Assembly (NCBI GenBank): GCA_947650365.1
Contig: OX393549.1
Coordinates: forward strand, 32,039,126-32,103,125
Origin: Chamaelirium japonicum
Taxonomy: Eukaryota; Streptophyta; Magnoliopsida; Liliales; Melanthiaceae
Direction: 5' to 3'
Length of the DNA stretch: 64,000 nucleotides
In this document: one piece after another, positions 44,838 through 56,349 of the stretch
How positions within the stretch are numbered: position 1 is the first letter of the stretch
How the letters are laid out: each line of letters opens with the position of its first letter
The notes under the pieces: generated by a model
Database searches by the model: none
What the model saw: the letters and a program-made list of their open reading frames with translations, nothing else
Told to the model about the DNA's origin: nothing
Translations under genes and position numbers: made by a program

Positions 44838-44846
44838 TTCATCCTT

Positions 44847-44928
44847 GAGGTTTTTACCGAAATGGCCACCAACTCTCAACTATTGTTGAGAATGGACCCC
44901 CTCAAAAAATCTGCACGAAAATGGCCAC
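44847..44928 (+). repeat. left terminal inverted repeat of the MULE
   Basis: 82 bp, matching the complement of 56259-56340 with one mismatch at base 55. It contains an internal palindrome, TCTCAACTATTGTTGAGA. In Mutator elements the ends bind the transposase and carry the promoter. Confidence 0.96.
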
Positions 44929-45124
44929 TGAAAATTCTTTGGGACCTAACTACCCTTTTACTTTACTACTAAAACCCTAGCTCCCATTGAGTCGCCCTTC
45001 ACTTCCCTCATTTGGACGGCAGCTTCCTCCACCTCTTTCGATGGCAACTGAGAGACGGACACCCATTTCAACGGCGATCATCAAATCCCGTGAGTCTTCC
45101 TTCACTTCACCCCCTTTCGACGGC

Positions 45125-45757
45125 TCCTACACTTCACCCCCTTTCAACGACTCCTATACTTCACCTCCATCCTTTGCGATTTTTTTCATATATGTTTGAT
45201 TAACTTCTTCATTGTACCATTTGATTACTTTTGATTTCATTAACAACAACAACCAATCGAGAAAAAGGAATGAAATCAACAAAAAGTAGTTGAATATTAA
45301 CAGCATATTTTAGGACGAAAGATGGACGAAAGATGGACGAAAAATGAACGAAATTGATAAAATTGGCTATTCATCATTATGGTTAGGACGAAAAAGGGAT
45401 GAAATCGACAAAATTAGCTGAATTTATATTATATTGGTCGTGATGAGTCCTACACTTCACCCCCTTTCAACGACTCCTATACTTCACCTCCATGCTTTGT
45501 GATTTTTTTCATATATGTTTGATTAACTTCTTCATTGTATTTGATTACTTTATAATTTCATTAACAACAATAACCAATCGAGAAAAAGGAACGAAATCAA
45601 CAAAAAGTAGTTAAATATTAACAGCACATTTTAGGACGAAAGATGGACGAAAAATGAACGAAATTGATAAAATTGGCTATTCATCATTATGGTTAGGACG
45701 AAAAAGGGATGAAATCGACAAAATTAGCTGAATTTATATTATATTGGTCGTGATGAG
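45125..45757. repeat. 323-bp tandem duplication in the MULE 5' region
   Basis: Two copies (45125-45447 and 45448-45757), each beginning TCCTACACTTCACCCCCTTTC. Each holds several GACGAAA words (for example GGACGAAAGATGGACGAAA), the same heptamer that builds the 91-bp arrays further right. It lies between the left end and the transposase start, so it is likely promoter or leader DNA. Confidence 0.88.
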
Positions 45758-45989
45758 TCTAGTATGTATTGGTCGTGATAAGTCTAGTATGTATTGGATA
45801 CGTATGATTAATTTTTGGTATCAAATTTGGTATTGTTGAGTTTTGATATTGTGGTTCTATGCTTAAAATAGTAACATCACATTGTAGGATGAAAAAGTGA
45901 TGAAATCGATAAAATGATTCATATTTGATATCAAATTTTATATTGCTGAGTTTTGATATTGTGATTATATGCTAACAGGGATTTGAAAT

Positions 45990-48826
45990 ATGGATTCAAC
46001 ATTACCGATACTTTGTTGTTACGATGGAGAATTGTTATATTTGAAAGAAAAATACGAGTACAAGGGTGGAAGAACTAAAAGTATCATTTTATCTACAAAA
46101 TCGGATTTGACTGTCTTCTTCAGGAAATTTATAAGATTACAAATGATAGTCTCAAAGAGTATGAAATCACAATGAAGGTTTTATATCCAAGTACACTTGC
46201 ATGTCCTCCTGCCGAAATTGTGGATGATAATGATGTTGCAGTATTTATTGCCCATAACATCCGAGCCAATAATAGCAATGTCCCATTGCTGATAAGCAGA
46301 GTGCTGAAAAATCCGAGATCTATTGACAGGTCGATTGAAATCGAACAACTCGGTAGTAAGAGGAAGTTGAAAGAAACGACACAGGTGTCTCGTAAAACAT
46401 CTTGTGTAGTTACCCCTCCCGTTGACTTAAAAAATATCTCGACGTCATCGGAGCTTTGTTGTTCGATATCGTCATCATTCGGTGTTGGAGATTTGCATAC
46501 GGATGAAAAGATTGATATTAATTATGGCGAAGATTTCAGTTTTGTACCATGCACACTAGATGTCAGTCAACGTATTGAGTACAAGAGTATGGAGAAACCT
46601 GAAGACAACCCTCTATTATTTGACATTGTTATGAATGACAGAAGGTATGAATAATTTTTTCAAATATCTTATATTGTAATTCTGATGATTAATTAGTTCA
46701 TGTACTTATATGTTTTTAAATAATATATGCCCAGTAAGGTGAATATAGATGACGATCAGCAGGGATCAAGAAGAGATGCAAAATTATCTATAGATCTTAA
46801 CCAAAAGCCTACTGGTTGTCATGTATTGGAGGAATTATTCATTGACACTCCTGCGGATATGGTAGTATCTCCAAAGCACACTCAACAGAATAGTCAGCTG
46901 AAGGATAAGGATATTATCTGTAAGCAAGAAGGAAGTAAGACTGAAAAACAAAGAAGTAAGAAAGAAGTACCACTGAGACATAGCCAGAAAGAGTGTTTTG
47001 CCAGCAGTAGTTGGATGGAAAACGATGAACGTAAGTCTTCAATACCTGATTCGGTTTTGGTTTATGAAGACAAATACGTACCTAACGAATTCCCTATTGC
47101 TGTTGAAGTAAAAGATGATTATCAACAACTTTATCCTAATCAGATGTTTATAGATAAAGACACATTGATCAAGATGGTACAGAAGAATGCTTTATTTACA
47201 AACACTGAGTACAAGGTGATGAAGTCCAGCAGAACAAGATATGCATTAAAATGTAAAAGAGAAAATTGCAGTTGGAGATTACGTGCAAGTAGACAAAAAG
47301 GGTGTGATGTTTTCAAAATTACTTTCCTAGGCCTACACAACTGCTCATTGCCGCAGCGTGGAATTGATCATCGACAAGCTACAAGCAAGTTGATATGTGA
47401 TTTTGTGAAAGCTCGAATAGAAGCACATGTATTGTACTCTCCCAAAGCAATTATATGTGATGTGCAATAAGAATTTGGTGTGCAGATCACTTATCGAAAA
47501 GCATGGCTGGCAAGGGAGATGGCAATTGCTCTTTTAAGAGGCTCATACGAGGACTCGTATGTAATTCTTCCAGCATATTGTCATGAAGTTGCACAAAATA
47601 ATCCTGGAACCATCACTAATATTTTAAGGGAAGGAGACAGATTTAAGGCTGTTTTTATGGCTCTTGGTCCATGTTTACGTAGTTTTCAAAGACAAAATCT
47701 AATACCAGTAATAGCCGTTGACGGATTTCATTTAAAAGGCAAGTACAAAAGTACTTTATTTATTGCAACCACTTTGGATGGAGATAATCATATATTTCCC
47801 GTGGCTATTGGGATTGGTGAATCGGAGAACAATGAAAGTTGGAATTGGTTCTTAACACAACTGCGGGACAGCTTGGGTCAAGTTAATGATTTGGTTATTA
47901 TATCCGACCGACACAAGGCTTTATTGGCTCAAGTTCCTATTGTCTTTCCGGATGCTGTACATGGTTATTGTGCGTTCCATATTTCGCAAAACATGTATGC
48001 CAAATTCAAACAACAAAGATTATACTCTTACTTTTATACAACTGCAAAGGCAACAAGAGAATCAAAGTTTCATCAAGTGATGGAAACTATAAAGCACATG
48101 AATGAAGATGCACATGACTGGTTACGAGAAATTGAGCCAGCAAAATGGACTACAGCGTATTTCACACGCAGAAGGTATAATATTATAACCACAAATAGTT
48201 CTGAAAGTTACAATAGTGTTCTAAAAGATATCAGAGAACTATCCATCACTATGATTTTGGAGCAATATCGGTTAAAGCTCCAACTTTTATGGTTTAAACG
48301 AAGAAATACGGCAACAACTTTGATAACAAAACTAACAAAATGGGCAGAAAATCAGCTAGCCGGAGATATGGATAGAGCTCGTGGCACAGCGTGTCATCCT
48401 ATTAATCTCGATGAGTATATGGTCAGATCTATACAATATTGTGATCATATAGTTTTAAGCAATCGAAAATGCACATGCCGTAAATTTGATGTGATGGCCA
48501 TGCCATGTTCACATGCATTAGCCGGAATTGCACAGTATAAGATGGATCCTTATCTATTTTGTGCACACTACTATACAGCGGATAACTACAGGGCAACCTA
48601 TGCAGAATCTATATATCCAGTTGCTGATAAAAGTGAGTGGAAGACCCCAGAAAGTATTCAATCAGCTAATAAACTAATCCCACCCATTGGAAAAAAAACA
48701 GCGGGAAGGCCAAAGAAAAAAAGAATTCTCTCACAGGGTGAGGAACGCCGGACTGTCAAATGTGCTAGATGTAAACGTTCTGGACATAATAAAAAATCAT
48801 GTAACTTTCCTATTATTACAGAGTAA
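45990..48826 (+). pseudogene. MURA-type MULE transposase, nearly intact
   Basis: Start ATG is at 45990. Exon 1 runs to 46644, the intron is 46645-46734 (GTATGA...CCCAG), and exon 2 is 46735-48826, about 900 codons in all. Domains in order: N-terminal MULE-type domain (YDGELLYLKEKYEYKGG); MuDR DNA-binding zinc finger at about 47107-47345 (CKRENCSWRLRAS...HNC); MULE DDE domain at about 47690-48000 with first Asp in AVDGFHLKG and second in IISDRHKAL; SWIM finger near 48465-48530 (CTC...PCSH); CCHC knuckle near 48755-48800 (CARCKRSGHNKKSC). I see one frameshift in exon 1 near 46121-46126 and one in-frame TAA at 47468-47470. The enzyme would cut and move the element. Confidence 0.92.
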
Positions 48827-49020
48827 AGGTATCATGTTTTTTTACTTGTTCCCTTTATAACTTTACACATACTTCTTCCAGTCATTATAACATGTCTGAC
48901 TGAATTATTGAAATCACTATGATTACTTGTTATATATGCATATTATGATATATATTCTTGTTTTTAATTTCTGCATTTTTTTTCAATATTTATAAAACTT
49001 ATTGAATGACATGATTATAC

Positions 49021-49292
49021 AGGTATCGTACCTATGGCAAATAAATACTATGTGGTATCGTTCATTCCGTTCCTTGGAGGAGGCTGAAGGTCACTTATCC
49101 AAGTTCCAAAGCGAGCATCTCCCTCCTGATAAACATCATGATATCCCTTTGGATAGCAAGCGTCATGCACCTTCGGATTGCGTCTCTTTTGTCCCTCCCG
49201 CTCCTAAGTTTACCACTCGGGAGTGTGGGTTTTGTATGTTAGGAGCACTTTTGGCTATGATGGTCTTTCTATTTATATTCATTGTAATATGA
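49021..49292 (+). CDS. small membrane-tailed ORF with partial viroplasmin-like piece
   Basis: Downstream of the transposase, a CAG at 49019-49021 could be a splice acceptor and is followed by a frame of about 90 codons ending at 49292. YRSFRSLEEAEGHLSKFQ resembles the end of the viroplasmin/RNase H1 N-terminal hybrid-binding domain. In the next frame at 49034, MANKYYVV resembles that domain's start, so the domain looks partial. The C-terminal 20 residues (from GFCMLGALLAMMVFLF) form one hydrophobic segment, like a tail anchor. It may be a third MULE gene or a captured host fragment. Expression is unproven. Confidence 0.4.
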
Positions 49293-49995
49293 ATGAAGGT
49301 GATTGTAATGATATGTGAGGGGGAACTCTATTGTAATGATATTTCTGGAGTATTGCATGTCTCGAATGTTGTAATGTAATGACATATCTTAAGTTTGTAA
49401 TGTAATGACATTTCTTAAGATTTTGCATTTAAGAAGTTATTCAGTTTGAAAACTGATCTTATTTGGTATTTCTTCGCATCCTCTATTTGGAGTTCATGGC
49501 GCAGGAAAAAAGTACAAACTGATCTTAGAAGAACATTGGATATCTTCTGCTTCTCCTATTACATAGAGAGAAAATATCATAGAGAGTGGAAAAAATTTAT
49601 AGATTGAAAAAAAATTATAGAGAGAGAAAAATAAGGAGAGGTAGTCTCATGTAAAAATATTATAGAGAGTGGAAAAATTTATATAGAGAGAAAAAAATTT
49701 ATAGATTGTTATAGAAAGAGAATCAATATTATAGAGACAAAAAATTATAGAGAGAGAAAAAAATTATAGAGAGATAAAAATTATAGAGAGAAAAAATTAT
49801 AGAGAGATAAAAATTAGAGTGAACAAAAATTATAGAGAGAGAAAAAATAGACGAAATTTATAGAGAGAGAAAAAATATAGAGAGAAAAAAAATTATAGAG
49901 ACAAAAAAATTATAGAGACAAAATTATAGAGAGAAGAAATTATAGAGAGATAAACATTAGAGTGAACAAAAATTATAGAGAAAGAAAACATAAAA
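49293..49995. repeat. AT-rich 3' region and TTATAGAGAGAGAAAAA low-complexity repeat
   Basis: From about 49560 to 49995 the sequence is made of irregular copies of ATTATAGAGAGAGAAAAAA. It lies between the transposase side and the first 91-bp array. No gene is seen. Confidence 0.8.
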
Positions 49996-50034
49996 GAAAT
50001 TTGTGATTTCGTCCAATTTTCGTCCAACTTTCGT

Positions 50035-50930
50035 CGACGAAAACTAGAAGAAATTTGTTATTTCGTCTGATTTTCGTCACAAAGCCCATAGCCACTCTCG
50101 GCCAGAACTGACTGTGCTTTTTCGGCGACGAAAACTAGACGAAATTTGGTATTTCGTCCGATTTTCGTCACACAGCCCATAGCCACTCTCGGCTAGAACT
50201 GACTATGCTTTTTCGGCGACGAAAACTAGACGAAATTTGGTATTTCGTCCAATTTTCGTCACATAGCCCATAGCCACTCTCGGCCAAAACTGACTGTGCT
50301 TTTTCGGCGACGAAAACTAGACGAAATTTGGTATTTCGTCCGATTTTCGTCACACAGCCCATAGCCACTCTCGGCCAGAACTGACTGTGCTTTTTCGGCG
50401 ATGAAAACTAGACAAAATTTGGTATTTCGTCCAATTTTCGTCACACAGCCCATAGCCACTCTCGGCCAAAACTGACTGTGCTTTTTCGGCGACGAAAACT
50501 AGACGAAATTTGGTATTTCGTCCGATTTTCGTCACACAGCCCATAGCCACTCTCGGCCAGAACTGACTGTGCTTTTTCGGCGACGAAAACTAGATGAAAT
50601 TTGGTATTTCGTCCAATTTTCGTCACACAGCCCATAGCCACTCTCGGCCAAAACTGACTGTGCTTTTTCGGCGACGAAAACTAGACGAAATTTGGTATTT
50701 CGTCCGATTTTCGTCACACAACCAAAAGCCAGTATCTGGCAGAAATGACTGTGATTTTTTTAGGACGAAAACTAGACGAAAACTCGACGAAACATAGACG
50801 AAATTTGTTATTTCGTCCTGATTTCGTCTCACAGCCCAAAGACAGTCTCGGTTAGCCTGATTGTGTAATTTTTCTTCGACGAAACATAGACGAAATTTGT
50901 TATTTCGTCCGAATTTCGTCTATATTTTAA
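50035..50930. repeat. 91-bp tandem array A (GACGAAA/TTTCGTC)
   Basis: About eight regular 91-bp units and two diverged ones at the right. Each has GACGAAAACTAGACGAAATT, ATTTCGTCCGATTTTCGTC and a spacer with CATAGCCACTCTCGG. GACGAAAT...ATTTCGTC can pair as a hairpin. Two unit types alternate (CCGATT with CCAGAAC, CCAATT with CCAAAAC), giving a 182-bp higher-order repeat. It sits between the 3' ends of the two convergent genes. Confidence 0.95.
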
Positions 50931-50974
50931 CAGGTTGTATGAGCAGTCTCTGGTAGGTTTCACTGTGATGCAAA

Positions 50975-51440
50975 TTACAACAAATTACAAACAACATATC
51001 ATTCTAACTTCCAACAAATTACAAACAACATATCATTCCATTACAAACAACATATCATTCCATTACAAATTTCACTGTGATCCAACTTCCAACAAATTAC
51101 AAACAACATATCATTCCATTACAAACAACATATCATTCCATTACAAATTTCACTGTGATCCAACTTCCAATAAATTACAAACAACATATCATTCCATTAC
51201 AAATTTCACTGTGATCCAACTTCCAACAAATTACAAACAACATATCATTCCATTACAAATTCCAACAAATTACAAATAACTTTGATCCAACTTTCAACAA
51301 TTACAAACAACATATCATTCCATTACAAATTCCAACAAATTACAAATAACTTTGATCCAACTTCCAAATCATCGAGTCATTCCTTCAGTTATAGCCCTTC
51401 CATTACAAATTACAACAAAGTACAACATATTACAAATTAC
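50975..51440. repeat. ACAAATTACAAACAACATATCATTCC tandem repeat
   Basis: Irregular repeats with a main word of TTACAAACAACATATCATTCCA and the longer word TTTCACTGTGATCCAACTTCC. It lies just downstream of the Ulp1 gene's 3' end and could include its 3' UTR and poly(A) signals. Confidence 0.85.
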
Positions 51441-51535
51441 AAATTCCAACAAATAACAAGTTCTTTGATGCATCGAGTCATCCCAATCGTCATGGCCCTT
51501 CAATCTACATATTTATACAAAATTTGATATGCAAT

Positions 51536-54500
51536 TCACCTTCGAAATGAGGTCATATCAAGCTACAAATTTAAACAATTAGATTGCAAGTGTAATTATT
51601 GAATATTATAACTGACTGAATATTACATTGCAAACAACTGAATATTATACCTGACTGAAATCGATCTTTTTGTTGCAGCTATAATAATTGGCAAAACATA
51701 TCAAAAATACGCCACAATCAAACCTATATAATATATAAAATTGTTAGTTGTATAAAAGGACTAATATTTTATTGTCAGCATTTCGTAATAAAAACTTACC
51801 CATTGTTTTGCCTAGGATGATCTTTACCATTCTTGCTTATCCATTTTGCACCCTGTAATGCATTTTCATCTCCCAAAAAATTTAAAAACATTGGTAGAAT
51901 TTCTAAAAATGCTTCTACCTTTTTCCTATACTTAGAAACAGGGTCACTATAAAGAGAGTCTATCAAAACTAATTGCCTATCCTGCATATGAAGAATCCCA
52001 AGATACCAATGTTGGTTTTCTTCATTGATAGGGATTATTACGTATGAACACTTCCATAACGGAATGATATCCCCTTTATCATCTTTGAGAGGACAACCGA
52101 ATTCTTTGGGCTACCTATATGATGCAATGAAGGCATACATAAGGTGATCTTTATCTAGGTTGCTTTTATCGTAACTTTGTACAAAGTCCTTCCAATCCTT
52201 ATAGCATGTTTGACATAATATCTGCAATTCAAACATGAATAATAAATATTTATTGAATTGTGAGAAAAATTTTTATACAAATACTATTAAGAATGAGAGA
52301 TATACCCAAGAATATGTCCTAGCCAAAGAAATGGTGAATGTTGTACTGGTCTTATTCCTTAACTTGCGCTCTTCAAGTAAGTACATATATACATCAATGT
52401 GCTGCAACAATATAAAGTTTTAAACGATTGAATATGACATATCGAGATATATCAAAAAAAATAATTGATATAAACTCACCTCGCTCATCACCCATGATGT
52501 GCGCTCATATAGTTTGTTAATTAAGTAAGGGGTTATAAAGAACCCATCAATTACAACTTCAGGCCTATATTGACAATGATACAATTAATTACTAAGAGGC
52601 AAAATATGTTATCATTCAAAAATAGATTATATAGTGACTATACTTACAAATTATTTCTGTTGTTATCAAGAAAAGCTATCATTGTCTCTCTCTCTTCAGA
52701 CGAAAGTCTTCTTATCGATTTTTCCACTTCAACGACCTCCTCTTCTTGTATTTCCTTACGGAGAATTTTTTTCTTTTTGTAGGTGGTGTATGGAGAGCTT
52801 ATTTTTCGACCCGGTTTCTTCAACCGCTGTGATGTTAAACCTTTGAATGTAACCCTCTCCACCACCACCTCGTCTCCCTCCTCATCATCCTTCTCCTTCT
52901 TCTCCTTCTCCTTCTCCATTTTATCCTTTTCTTTTTTCTCCTCCTTCACCTTCTCCTTCTCCTCCTCCTCCTCCTCCTCCTTCTTCTTCTCGTTCTTCTT
53001 CTCCTTCTCCTTCTCCTCCTCATCCTCATCCTCCTTCTTCTTCTCATTCTCCTTCTTCTCCTCCTCCTCTTCCTCCTCCTCCTTCTTCTTCTCCTTATCC
53101 TCCTTCTTCTCCTCCTCATCCTCCTTCTTCTTGTCATTCTCCTTCTGCACATACCGTTAAAGATAAACATATAGTTAATGCATACGTATACAAAAAGCAA
53201 ATAATTATAGAATACATAGGAATCGTTATTGGTTTACCTGACTCTTTGCAATGATGCATAATAGTTCTCCAACTCTCTCCTCAAGTGAGGAGATCTTCTT
53301 TTCATATTTCTCCTCAATTGAGGAGATCTTCCTTTGACATTCCTCAAACTTCTCCTGAAGTGAGCATAATTTTTTTTCAAATTTCTCCTCAAGTGAGGAG
53401 AATCTTTCCTCAAACTTCACTTCATCGGATCTGTCAAAAGCTTCCGGTGCAGTCAACAACAGCTGATTGCCTTCGAAGGGAGAAGCCTCAGCATCAAATA
53501 GATTTTGCAGCAGATCATTTGTCTTCTCCTCTTCTGTGAGAGTCAGCTCTTTCAAAATCTGAGCCTATTAATATATTCAGACAAAAAAATTAATAATTAT
53601 ACGATGCATCTATTACTTTAATCTAAGCAATTAAAAACTCATATACTTACTTTATTTGAATTCACAATATCATTTATTCTTTGGTGTGACGCTACTCTTA
53701 TGTCATACCAATTGAGTAATCCCGGCCATCTTGGATGCTCAAGCATCATGGCACATACACTCCCCAGTTGGGGAATCCATTCGAATGCCCATGCCTGTAG
53801 CAAATAATTAAAGAAAAATTAATACAAATATCAAACAATAGATACTATGAATTGTTTATGTATAGAATAATACCTGTAAAATGTACATGCATCCAAAAAT
53901 ATTATACTTTGGTGGCCACTTAGTAACATTTACTGCACCTTCAAGCCCAGATATAATATTGCTATAACAGAGGTTACCCCAAGGGTAGCTATTGAAACCG
54001 TCCAGATCATCCACCAATCTCAAATATCTTTCCGGTACGTTGACATTCTTGTTGCTCCCAAGAATGACACTTTCCAAAAGAAGTACCAAAGAAAGTTTTA
54101 TTGCATCATCTGGAACTGCAGTTGCTATGATTGAAGCCATTAAGGAGGCCTGAGTAGCCCCGCGTGGAAAGTATCTGCTTCTCAAGTTGTCTGACCCTAT
54201 CTCTAGCATCGAAGGAGGAGGCCCAAGACCAAACCGGAGTCCAGAAACTAAAAAAAACTCCAACGGAGATAAGGAAATAGTCTGGCCATCCAAATCAAAC
54301 TTCAGACCACCTAAGTGTCTTTGCCACAAATAATGAATGACACTTGGGGAAATCATAGCTCGTGCACCGCGTCTCCAATCAAATAAGAAACCAAAACAAC
54401 TCCTTTTCATCATATCCATCATATCTGTAGAATTGGTTTTTGTATCCATTGCCTTGAAGTGCTCCTCAATTTCATTAAGGTATTTAATGCTGTTCCTTGC

Positions 54501-54689
54501 AGAAGCTTTATCAAAATACCTTAATCTTTCACTTAGCTCCGTGCCCACTTTCTTTTCTTCAACATTCTCTCCCTCTTCTATCTTTCTTTTCTTTTTCTTT
54601 ACTTCAATAGGTTGTGTAATTATAGAAGAAGCAGGGTCCCTATCACCACTTCCACGAGAACGCCCACGACCACGGTGTCTCTTCACCAT
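51536..54689 (-). CDS. DUF1985 / Ulp1-like cysteine peptidase of the MULE
   Basis: Nine exons with GT-AG borders and consistent phases: 54689-53874, 53794-53651, 53564-53238, 53144-52648, 52564-52480, 52401-52306, 52221-51800, 51723-51651 and 51562-51536, 828 codons plus stop. The N-terminus is basic. Next comes a DUF1985-like domain (residues about 70-320; ISLSPLEFFLVSGLRFG, YPWGNLCYSNI), a coiled coil (exon 3), a Lys/Glu-rich stretch (exon 4), then the C48 peptidase. Active-site residues are visible: His in NQHWYLG, Asp in VLIDSL, Gln and Cys in PRQNNGFDCGVF. Ulp1-type enzymes cleave SUMO or related conjugates. The one lesion seen is an in-frame TAG at 52113-52111. The start ATG sits right behind a splice acceptor. 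Confidence 0.88.
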
Positions 54690-54896
54690 CTGTAAACAAA
54701 ATATATATATGATGAAAATTTGGATGATATGTGGACGAAACAATACATAAAATATGGACGAAACTACTATTAGTTATTCTCCAAATACGAAAATACTGTA
54801 AGCTTTGTTTGAAGAGAATTGATCTCTCAGTTTCTAGATTGAACAAAATATCCTTCCATTAGTCCATGGATACAGATAAAGAATTTGTCAACTGAC

Positions 54897-55830
54897 TGTG
54901 ACTTTTCGGCAACGAAACATAGCCGAAATTTGTAATTTCGTCCAATTTTCGTCCAACTTTCGTCACACAGCTCAATGCAAGTCTCGGGCAGAACTGCCAG
55001 AACTGACTGTGATTTTTCGGCGACGAAAACTAGATGAAATTTGTTATTTCGTCCGATTTTTGTCACACATGCCATAGCCAGTCACGGCCAGAACTGACTG
55101 TGCTTTTTCGGCGACGAAAACTAGACGAAATTTGTTATTTCGTCCAATTTTCGTCAAACAGACCATAGCCAGTCTCTGCCAGAACTGACTGTGCTTTTTC
55201 GGCGACGAAAACTAGACGAAATTTGTTATTTCGTCCGATTTTCGTCAAACAGACCATAGCCAGTCTCTGCCAGAACTGACTGTGCTTTTTTGGCGACGAA
55301 AACTAGACGAAATTTGTTATTTCGTCCGATTTTCGTCAAAACAGACCATAGCCAGTCTCTGCCAGAACTGACTGTGCTTTTTCGGCGACGAAAACTAGAC
55401 GAAATTTGTTATTTCGTCCGATTTTCGTCAAAACAGACCATAGCCAGTCTCTGCCAGAACTGACTGTGATTTTTCGGCGACGAAAACTAGACGAAATTCG
55501 TTATTTCGTCCGATTTTCGTCAAACAGACCACAGCCAGTCTCTGCCAGAACTGACTGTGATTTTTTGGCGACGAAAACTAGACGAAAATTGTTATTTCGT
55601 CCGATTTTCGTCACACAGGCCATAGCCAGTCTCGGCCAGAACTGACTGTGATTTATCGGCGACGAAAACTAGACGAAATTTGTTATTTCGTCCGGTTTTC
55701 GTCACACAGGCCATAGCCAGTCTCTGCCAGAACTGACTGTAATTTACGGCGACGAAAACTAGACGAAAGTTGTTATTTCGTCTGATTTTCGTCTCACAGT
55801 TTAAAGCCAGTCCCTGGCAGAAATATAGTG
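54897..55830. repeat. 91-bp tandem array B (GACGAAA/TTTCGTC)
   Basis: About ten units of 91-103 bp in the same orientation as array A and clearly homologous (GACGAAAACTAGACGAAATT, TTTCGTCCGATTTTCGTC, CCATAGCCAGTCTCTGCCAG). It lies upstream of the Ulp1 gene, between its start and the right end of the MULE. Confidence 0.95.
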
Positions 55831-56258
55831 CTAAGGATTTGGGTCTATAGAGCATACCTTGGCAAATCCGACGAAGCCTGAAAGACGAAGCCTCAGTGAC
55901 GAAGCCTCAACGACGAAGCCTCAGCGACTGTTGACGTTGACGCCGGTCCGACGAACCCTCGACGACGGTTGATCGTGACAAACCCTCGACAATGAACCCT
56001 CGAAGATGAACCCTCGACGACGCAGCCTCGGCGAAACCAAGTTACCCAGCCACGACGACGCAGCCGGTTGAGTTGGAGGTTGTCGGACGCAGCCTCGACG
56101 AAGGTTGTTTGTGACGAAAACAAGACGAAAGGCTCGATTTTCTCTCAAAACTCGTAAGAAACCAAGTTACCCAGCCGAGATAGGTTTTTACAGTGGTAAG
56201 GGTCAATATGTCTTTTTACCTGTTTAGTGTCACCGTGCGACCTGTTTCCCACGTGCTG
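55831..56258 (-). promoter_or_regulatory. right subterminal region, probable Ulp1 promoter and leader
   Basis: It contains a CGACGAAGCCTC/CGACGAACCCTCGA-rich stretch (55870-56100) and a 21-bp direct repeat, AAACCAAGTTACCCAGCC (about 56035 and 56159). The placement before the minus-strand gene makes it the likely promoter region, by analogy to MuDR where promoters lie at the ends. Confidence 0.45.
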
Positions 56259-56340
56259 GTGGCCATTTTCGTGCAGATTTTTTGACGGGGTCCATTCTCA
56301 ACAATAGTTGAGAGTTGGTGGCCATTTCGGTAAAAACCTC
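56259..56340 (-). repeat. right terminal inverted repeat of the MULE
   Basis: Complement of the left repeat with one mismatch, followed by the second TTCATCCTT. Confidence 0.96.
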
Positions 56341-56349
56341 TTCATCCTT

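Follow-up and report, generated by a model that had tools for sequence, protein, structure and literature searches.

A Mutator-like element family of Chamaelirium japonicum with a DUF1985/Ulp1-type peptidase gene and helically spaced GACGAAA arrays

The element, its ends and its two genes

Here, we describe a transposable element in a 64,000-nt stretch of the Chamaelirium japonicum genome (contig OX393549.1 of assembly GCA_947650365.1, positions 32,039,126 to 32,103,125 of the forward strand; hereafter the window, with positions counted from its first letter). The element spans positions 44847–56340 (11,494 bp) and is a Mutator-like element (MULE) of the type bounded by terminal inverted repeats (TIR-MULE), as indicated by its long terminal inverted repeats (TIRs), a 9-bp target-site duplication and a transposase with MULE, DBD_Tnp_Mut and SWIM domains. 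It carries two convergent genes, one encoding the transposase on the (+) strand and the other a DUF1985/Ulp1-type peptidase on the (−) strand, and its non-coding DNA is dense in the short motif GACGAAA, repeated at a spacing of 11 bp. The features are listed in Table 1.

The original prediction, made from the sequence of the window, described the element as a MULE with a perfect 9-bp duplication, 82-bp inverted ends with one mismatch and two convergent multi-exon genes with conserved catalytic words, and all of this proved correct. Specifically, the duplication (TTCATCCTT) is perfect and directly abuts positions 44847 and 56340; these are its two occurrences on the plus strand of the window, with no third copy there and none on the minus strand. 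The 82-nt ends are 99% complementary, the single mismatch lying at end position 55. The left end repeat also contains 6-bp inverted arms (CTCAAC/GTTGAG) enclosing 4 nt, as well as two CGAAA-type words. A search of the assembly for an empty site of the window insertion returned both window flanks and ten weak partial matches, and no empty site.

Table 1. Features of the element in the window
Feature	Position	Strand	Remarks
Left target-site duplication	44838..44846		TTCATCCTT
Left TIR, 82 bp	44847..44928	+	81/82 versus right arm
Left subterminal GACGAAA cluster	45314..45703	+	7 copies, 11 bp apart inside groups; precedes transposase gene
Transposase exon 1	45990..46644	+	Frameshifted in window copy
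Transposase exon 2	46735..48826	+	DBD_Tnp_Mut, MULE, SWIM; TAA lesion 47468–47470
Central array	50007..50920		91-bp units, palindromic GACGAAA pairs; between 3′ ends of both genes
Peptidase exons 7–9	51536..52221	-	C48 catalytic core, His/Asp/Gln/Cys words; TAG 52113–52111, extra TGA 51538–51536
Peptidase exons 5–6	52306..52564	-	
Peptidase exon 4	52648..53144	-	Lys/Glu-rich repeat region, copy-to-copy length variation
Peptidase exon 3	53238..53564	-	Coiled-coil-like peptide repeats, copy-to-copy length variation
Peptidase exon 2	53651..53794	-	
Peptidase exon 1	53874..54689	-	DUF1985 domain
Right array	54936..55822		91-bp GACGAAA units; upstream of peptidase gene
Right TIR, 82 bp	56259..56340	-	
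Right target-site duplication	56341..56349		TTCATCCTT

The domain content of the transposase is clearest in a sister copy of the element, locus L010, whose transposase of 915 aa matches MULE (75.7 bits), DBD_Tnp_Mut (31.4 bits) and SWIM (22.2 bits), all above the Pfam cut-off, and ends in a C-terminal CX2CX4HX4C knuckle (read by eye). The pieces of the window transposase likewise match all three domains above cut-off. Downstream of this gene, an 80-aa frame with a hydrophobic C-terminus lies at 49050–49292 (+), and 28 of 30 loci, the window included, share the position of its first stop; this may represent part of a 3′ untranslated region or else a third small gene.

The peptidase gene runs through nine exons from 54689 to 51536, and all eight introns are of the GT-AG type. 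DUF1985 is recognized in window exon 1 (46.7 bits) and in exons 1–2 of the sister copy B (48.3 bits; cut-off, 35.1), and the C48 domain, which spans exons 5–9, scores 64.7 bits in sister sequence (above cut-off) and 31.8 bits in the window's own pieces. The His, Asp, Gln and Cys of the C48 domain align with those of SENP2 (1tgz) and Ulp1 (1euv), although this similarity is remote (E 6e-8). 'SUMO protease' is used here as a family label for the C48 gene, with SUMO (small ubiquitin-like modifier) as its putative substrate. A match to PMD (32.6 bits) fell below its cut-off of 34.9. With the DUF1985 exon as query, a search against the sequences of solved structures gave a best E-value of 1.9, and a single-sequence AlphaFold model tried beside it was too poor for use (mean predicted local distance difference test score, 37.6).

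Sister copies and the age of the window copy

To place the window copy within its family, we compared it with sister copies in the 1.52-Gb genome, in which the window lies on contig C1. The comparison covers the best-scoring copies, 29 of the 39 listed sisters per gene, so the counts are lower bounds and not a census. The search with the inverted end (best 40 of 884 candidates) listed 42 matches, of which 40, including the window's own two ends, were 99–100% identical, showing that other copies with near-identical ends are plentiful. All of the best 40 of 443 candidates for the transposase, and all of the best 40 of 243 for the peptidase, matched at 99–100%, with the window's copy included in each set. 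In the 10 sister elements for which both ends were fetched, all 10 end pairs were flanked by a perfect 9-bp duplication. Two further sisters, copies A and B, were fetched at full length; both have inverted ends that match at 82/82 positions, and a 9-bp duplication flanks A and is absent from B, so that 12 of 13 elements, the window included, have one. An inverted end pair at C1:82082658–82088897 lies only 6.2 kb apart and is probably an internally deleted copy.

The transposase gene and exons 3–9 of the peptidase gene are largely intact among the sisters examined, in agreement with the prediction that copies free of the window's lesions exist. The transposase gene is intact in 24 of the 29 sisters examined, and peptidase exons 3–9 are in frame without an internal stop in 28 of 29, with the catalytic words also present in 28 of 29. 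The transposase coding sequence measures 2747 nt in the window and 2748 nt in 24 of the 29 sisters, the others having 2747 (two), 2760 (two) or 2727 nt (one). The expectation that most copies of such elements are decayed does not hold here for the copies examined, and the lesions of the window copy are not shared among the sisters. These lesions number four: the frameshift in transposase exon 1, the TAA at 47468–47470 and the TAG at 52113–52111, all three of which had been predicted and could be located, plus a TGA at 51538–51536 that had not been counted. The latter stands at the end of the window's last exon and is a non-stop codon in 29 of 29 sister loci as well as in copies A and B.

The window copy also stands apart in divergence. 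Its transposase gene differs from those of the 29 sisters by 0.67–1.45% (median, 0.70%; 98.5–99.3% DNA identity), versus 0–1.31% (median, 0.106%) among the sisters themselves, and of the 19 substitutions that separate it from the sister majority, 15 are of the C-to-T type (11 in CHH, 4 in CHG and 0 in CG contexts). With a plant rate of ~7e-9 substitutions per site per year, the median difference between sisters corresponds roughly to 0.1 million years and that of the window copy roughly to 0.5 million years, ages that date sequence divergence and not insertion. The window copy is therefore an older, broken and diverged member of the family, and the original description of the element as 'recently moved' and 'almost intact' fits the sisters, which are so much closer to each other, better than the copy for which it was proposed.

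Despite the closeness of the sister transposase genes to that of the window, the DUF1985 exon next to the 39 sister transposase matches shows 93–94% protein identity to that of the window in 32 cases and 97–98% in 6, with none listed in the remaining case. Locus L025 carries a DUF1985 exon of the 98% type, yet its transposase differs from that of the window at 41 positions, versus a median of 20 in the young copies with the 354 exon, and an exon of the 318 type, which stands beside 305, 335 and 295 types named by the length of their open frames, is found, for example, at C2:25177365–25178180; exchange of DUF1985 modules between subfamilies is possible. In a protein search (best 142 of 697 candidates), 126 of the 142 scored DUF1985 relatives, at 84–100% identity, had no stop in the matched stretch. 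Length differences among the 29 sisters were multiples of 3 for exon 3 in 29 of 29 and for exon 4 in 28 of 29, while an AT-rich non-coding repeat used for comparison departed from steps of three in 8 of 29; since exon 4 is built mostly from units of 3 and 6 bp, constraint is only weakly supported by this. We also considered fast divergence of exons 2–3 in young copies (25/451) and rejected it, as a MAFFT comparison traced most of it to exon 3 length differences. At the right end of the element, 23–26 of 570–667 sites differ between the window and ten young copies, and outside the array, 8–9 of 408–422 sites differ in the six copies compared.

GACGAAA arrays

The motif GACGAAA occurs 99 times in the window, versus 9.1 expected, a number reached in none of 100 shuffles. 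Its distribution is highly uneven: the non-coding part of the element (6,260 bp) holds 90 copies, its coding part (5,234 bp) 1 and the remaining 52,506 bp of the window 8. Tandem Repeats Finder (TRF) delimited two arrays of 91-bp units, at 50029–50781 (8.3 units) and 54994–55822 (9.1 units), which the original prediction had not mentioned. Within the element, 48 copies are on the plus strand and 43 on the minus strand, paired head-to-head.

The spacing of the motif follows approximately one turn of the DNA helix. Same-strand pairs no more than 40 bp apart are spaced by 11 bp (43 pairs), 22 bp (5 pairs) and 23, 32 or 33 bp (one pair each), such that all 43 pairs within 20 bp lie at exactly 11 bp, with 12 different 4-nt linkers, and head-to-head distances below 60 bp are confined to 14, 25, 36, 47 and 58 bp (i.e., 14 + 11n). 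Copies A and B show the same rule, with 33 of 33 and 41 of 41 same-strand pairs within 20 bp at 11 bp. Because array units arose by duplication, the 11-bp pairs cannot be counted as independent; the spacing nonetheless recurs in several sequence contexts. Genome-wide, where we examined spacings of 11 and 12 bp, there are 8,100 pairs at 11 bp (reversed control, 6) and 326 at 12 bp (control, 23). Among the matches listed, the 12-bp pairs are grouped in compact clusters in which words of the plus strand stand to the left of those of the minus strand (C3:34189817–34193519, C1:87390161–87391742 and C2:67153731–67155091); they apparently belong to another, perhaps non-autonomous, element type with shifted phase.

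The arrays change quickly. In 32 copies in which both genes were located, the distance from transposase to peptidase falls exactly on a ladder of 4774 + 91n bp in 16, within 10 bp of it in 14 and off it in 2 (4119 and 4754 bp), the chance of falling within 10 bp of a 91-bp ladder being 21 in 91; the window copy, at 4759 bp, is 15 bp off. The array edges are fixed: of 30 loci, the window among them, 19 have one edge 1158 bp past the transposase gene, and 25 have the other edge 844 bp ahead of the peptidase match. Together, the ladder and the fixed edges indicate that units have been gained or lost between copies that are otherwise ~0.1% apart.

The genome contains 1,536 exact copies of a 22-base word from the array, against 0 of the reversed control. 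In the part of C1 covered by the first 100 listed places (as far as 57.69 Mb), the word was found no more than 3.4 kb from 11 of 11 DUF1985 relatives of the same family, including that of the window, and near 0 of 3 DUF1985 genes of other type, the nearest being 15 kb away (Fisher p 0.003, a value that assumes independent copies, which these are not). The second DUF1985 type (profile 9–138, mostly 330-aa open frames; e.g., C1:52422682 and C4:8820652) occurs 3 times on this part of C1, each time with no copy of the word closer than 15 kb. At C1:4987786–4989953, GACGAAA units recur every ~0.5 kb, with no DUF1985 match among those listed nearby.

A VANC-like reading and its alternatives

The VANC anti-silencing system of Arabidopsis is marked by DUF1985, peptide repeats and dynamic motif arrays, and we accordingly read the second gene as VANC/KIU-like. 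VANC proteins of the Arabidopsis VANDAL elements combine DUF1985 with variable peptide repeats, and Hosaka et al. (PMC5735166) describe VANC21 as binding a 9-bp motif that is dense in the non-coding DNA of its own family, in target regions that evolve as tandem repeats. The present element resembles this system in being a MULE, in having a second gene with DUF1985 and peptide repeats, and in its dense short motif, mainly non-coding and in fast-changing tandem arrays. It differs in the motif itself (GACGAAA here, YAGTATTAY there) and in having a C48 domain.

The C48 domain is shared with other MULEs. In PMC2528002, Kaonashi elements (KI-MULE/KIU) have an Ulp1-type gene opposite the transposase, as here, although the KI-MULE was described as non-TIR, while melon and grapevine are known to have TIR-MULEs whose ULP gene lies in one or the other orientation, so that this pairing is not new; arrays and DUF1985 are not mentioned for the latter in the text compared. 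According to a 2026 review (PMC13317346), some VANC genes carry Ulp1 (KIUs) and recognize motifs in KIU-carrying VANDALs, a likeness to the combination seen here. SENP2 and Ulp1, with which the catalytic region and its His, Asp, Gln and Cys are shared, differ in that C48 stands here in one gene with DUF1985. In the literature searched, which mostly excludes subscription journals, we found no TIR-MULE described as combining DUF1985-Ulp1 with helically phased arrays. We do not file the element as a VANDAL or a KI-MULE; by analogy, it most likely works like the VANC/KIU anti-silencing system.

Our preferred reading, to which we give a probability of about 0.6, is that this MULE family has undergone a recent burst, the window copy being an older and dead member of the family, and that the product of its second gene is a VANC/KIU-like protein, which would bind the GACGAAA arrays and counteract silencing. 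The anatomy, copies, duplications, intact sister genes, arrays and catalytic words were observed directly; from them, we infer binding, anti-silencing and, with C48, SUMO as a substrate. The transposase would cut and insert the element via its 82-bp ends, leaving the 9-bp duplications. The DUF1985 half, with the coiled-coil repeats, would recognize GACGAAA, which recurs with roughly the period of the helix (11 bp) on the left, in the center and on the right of the element; a role for helical periodicity was reportedly described by Sasaki et al. in 2022 (EMBO J). Bound to the arrays, the VANC/KIU-like protein would strip silent chromatin from its own family, possibly by de-SUMOylating silencing factors through C48, and removal of the silent chromatin would allow the transposase to be expressed.

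Several observations weigh against this reading. The 82-bp ends are near-perfect, whereas VANDAL ends are degenerate, and degenerate ends and VANC genes go together in Arabidopsis (PMC10398659). GACGAAA is paired head-to-head, whereas VANC21 motifs all have one orientation (PMC5735166), and DUF287 was not reported at E 0.01 when exons 1–2 (copy B) and 3–9 (L049) were scanned as separate groups. Copies A and B, the sole sisters fetched in full, both have disrupted peptidase frames. Polymorphism among the sisters gave a ratio of nonsynonymous plus stop to synonymous changes of 60:21, near the neutral 2.67:1, with no purifying selection; selection on the sisters was rejected on this basis. Only 11 of 20 array-word clusters on the listed part of C1 have a scored DUF1985 relative and 9 of 20 do not, and family-specific arrays adjoin the genes of that family whatever their role, which makes proximity weak as proof of function. 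The arrays could bind the transposase or host factors instead.

The alternative that survives best, though we regard it as unlikely, is that the arrays are transposase-binding sites and that the DUF1985/C48 gene, captured as a passenger, plays no part in silencing. Subterminal repeats serve as transposase-binding sites in En/Spm-type elements, and here motif clusters lie close to both ends, with the related words ACGAAAA and CCGAAAT in the end repeat itself, but the dense central array sits between the genes, ~5 kb from either end. Capture of Ulp1 genes by MULEs is frequent (PMC2528002), yet exons 3–9 are still in frame in 28 of 29 sisters, and the match is free of stops in 126 of 142 relatives, down to 84% identity. 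The arrays might also be promoter or enhancer repeats that drive both genes via a host factor, with the peptidase acting elsewhere, e.g., on the transposase; clusters do lie upstream of both genes, but the central array is at their 3′ ends, and we consider this improbable. That the arrays are functionless by-products of slippage or unequal exchange would agree with unit numbers that step by 91 bp between sisters and with non-independent 11-bp pairs copied from unit to unit, but it is very improbable, given an 11-bp spacing held across 12 linkers, the few head-to-head distances below 60 bp and the near absence of the motif from coding DNA.

The VANC/KIU-like reading has a more specific form, in which the second gene would encode a DNA-addressed SUMO protease: the DUF1985 half would read the helically spaced GACGAAA, and the tethered C48 domain would remove SUMO from silencing complexes on the family's own copies. 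A review of plant ULPs (PMC6117577) places Kaonashi-type proteases far from true ULPs and describes them as showing hardly any expression and as unlikely to have SUMO as a substrate, a point that also counts against the preferred reading; this doubt lowers the probability of the specific form, which we hold to be doubtful and offer as a tentative proposal.

If the second gene did encode a DNA-addressed SUMO protease, it would answer how VANC-type proteins erase silencing once bound, a step given as an open question in PMC5735166, and such an eraser would sit in a recently burst element that keeps long inverted ends. As judged from sequence, the C48 domain, with catalytic words intact in 28 of 29 sisters, is a concrete candidate for this missing step. 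A recently burst family that combines near-perfect long ends with the same kind of gene and array would also provide a test of whether degeneration of the ends is needed, and its many near-identical copies, differing in array length, form a natural dose series in which array size may be compared with protection from silencing.

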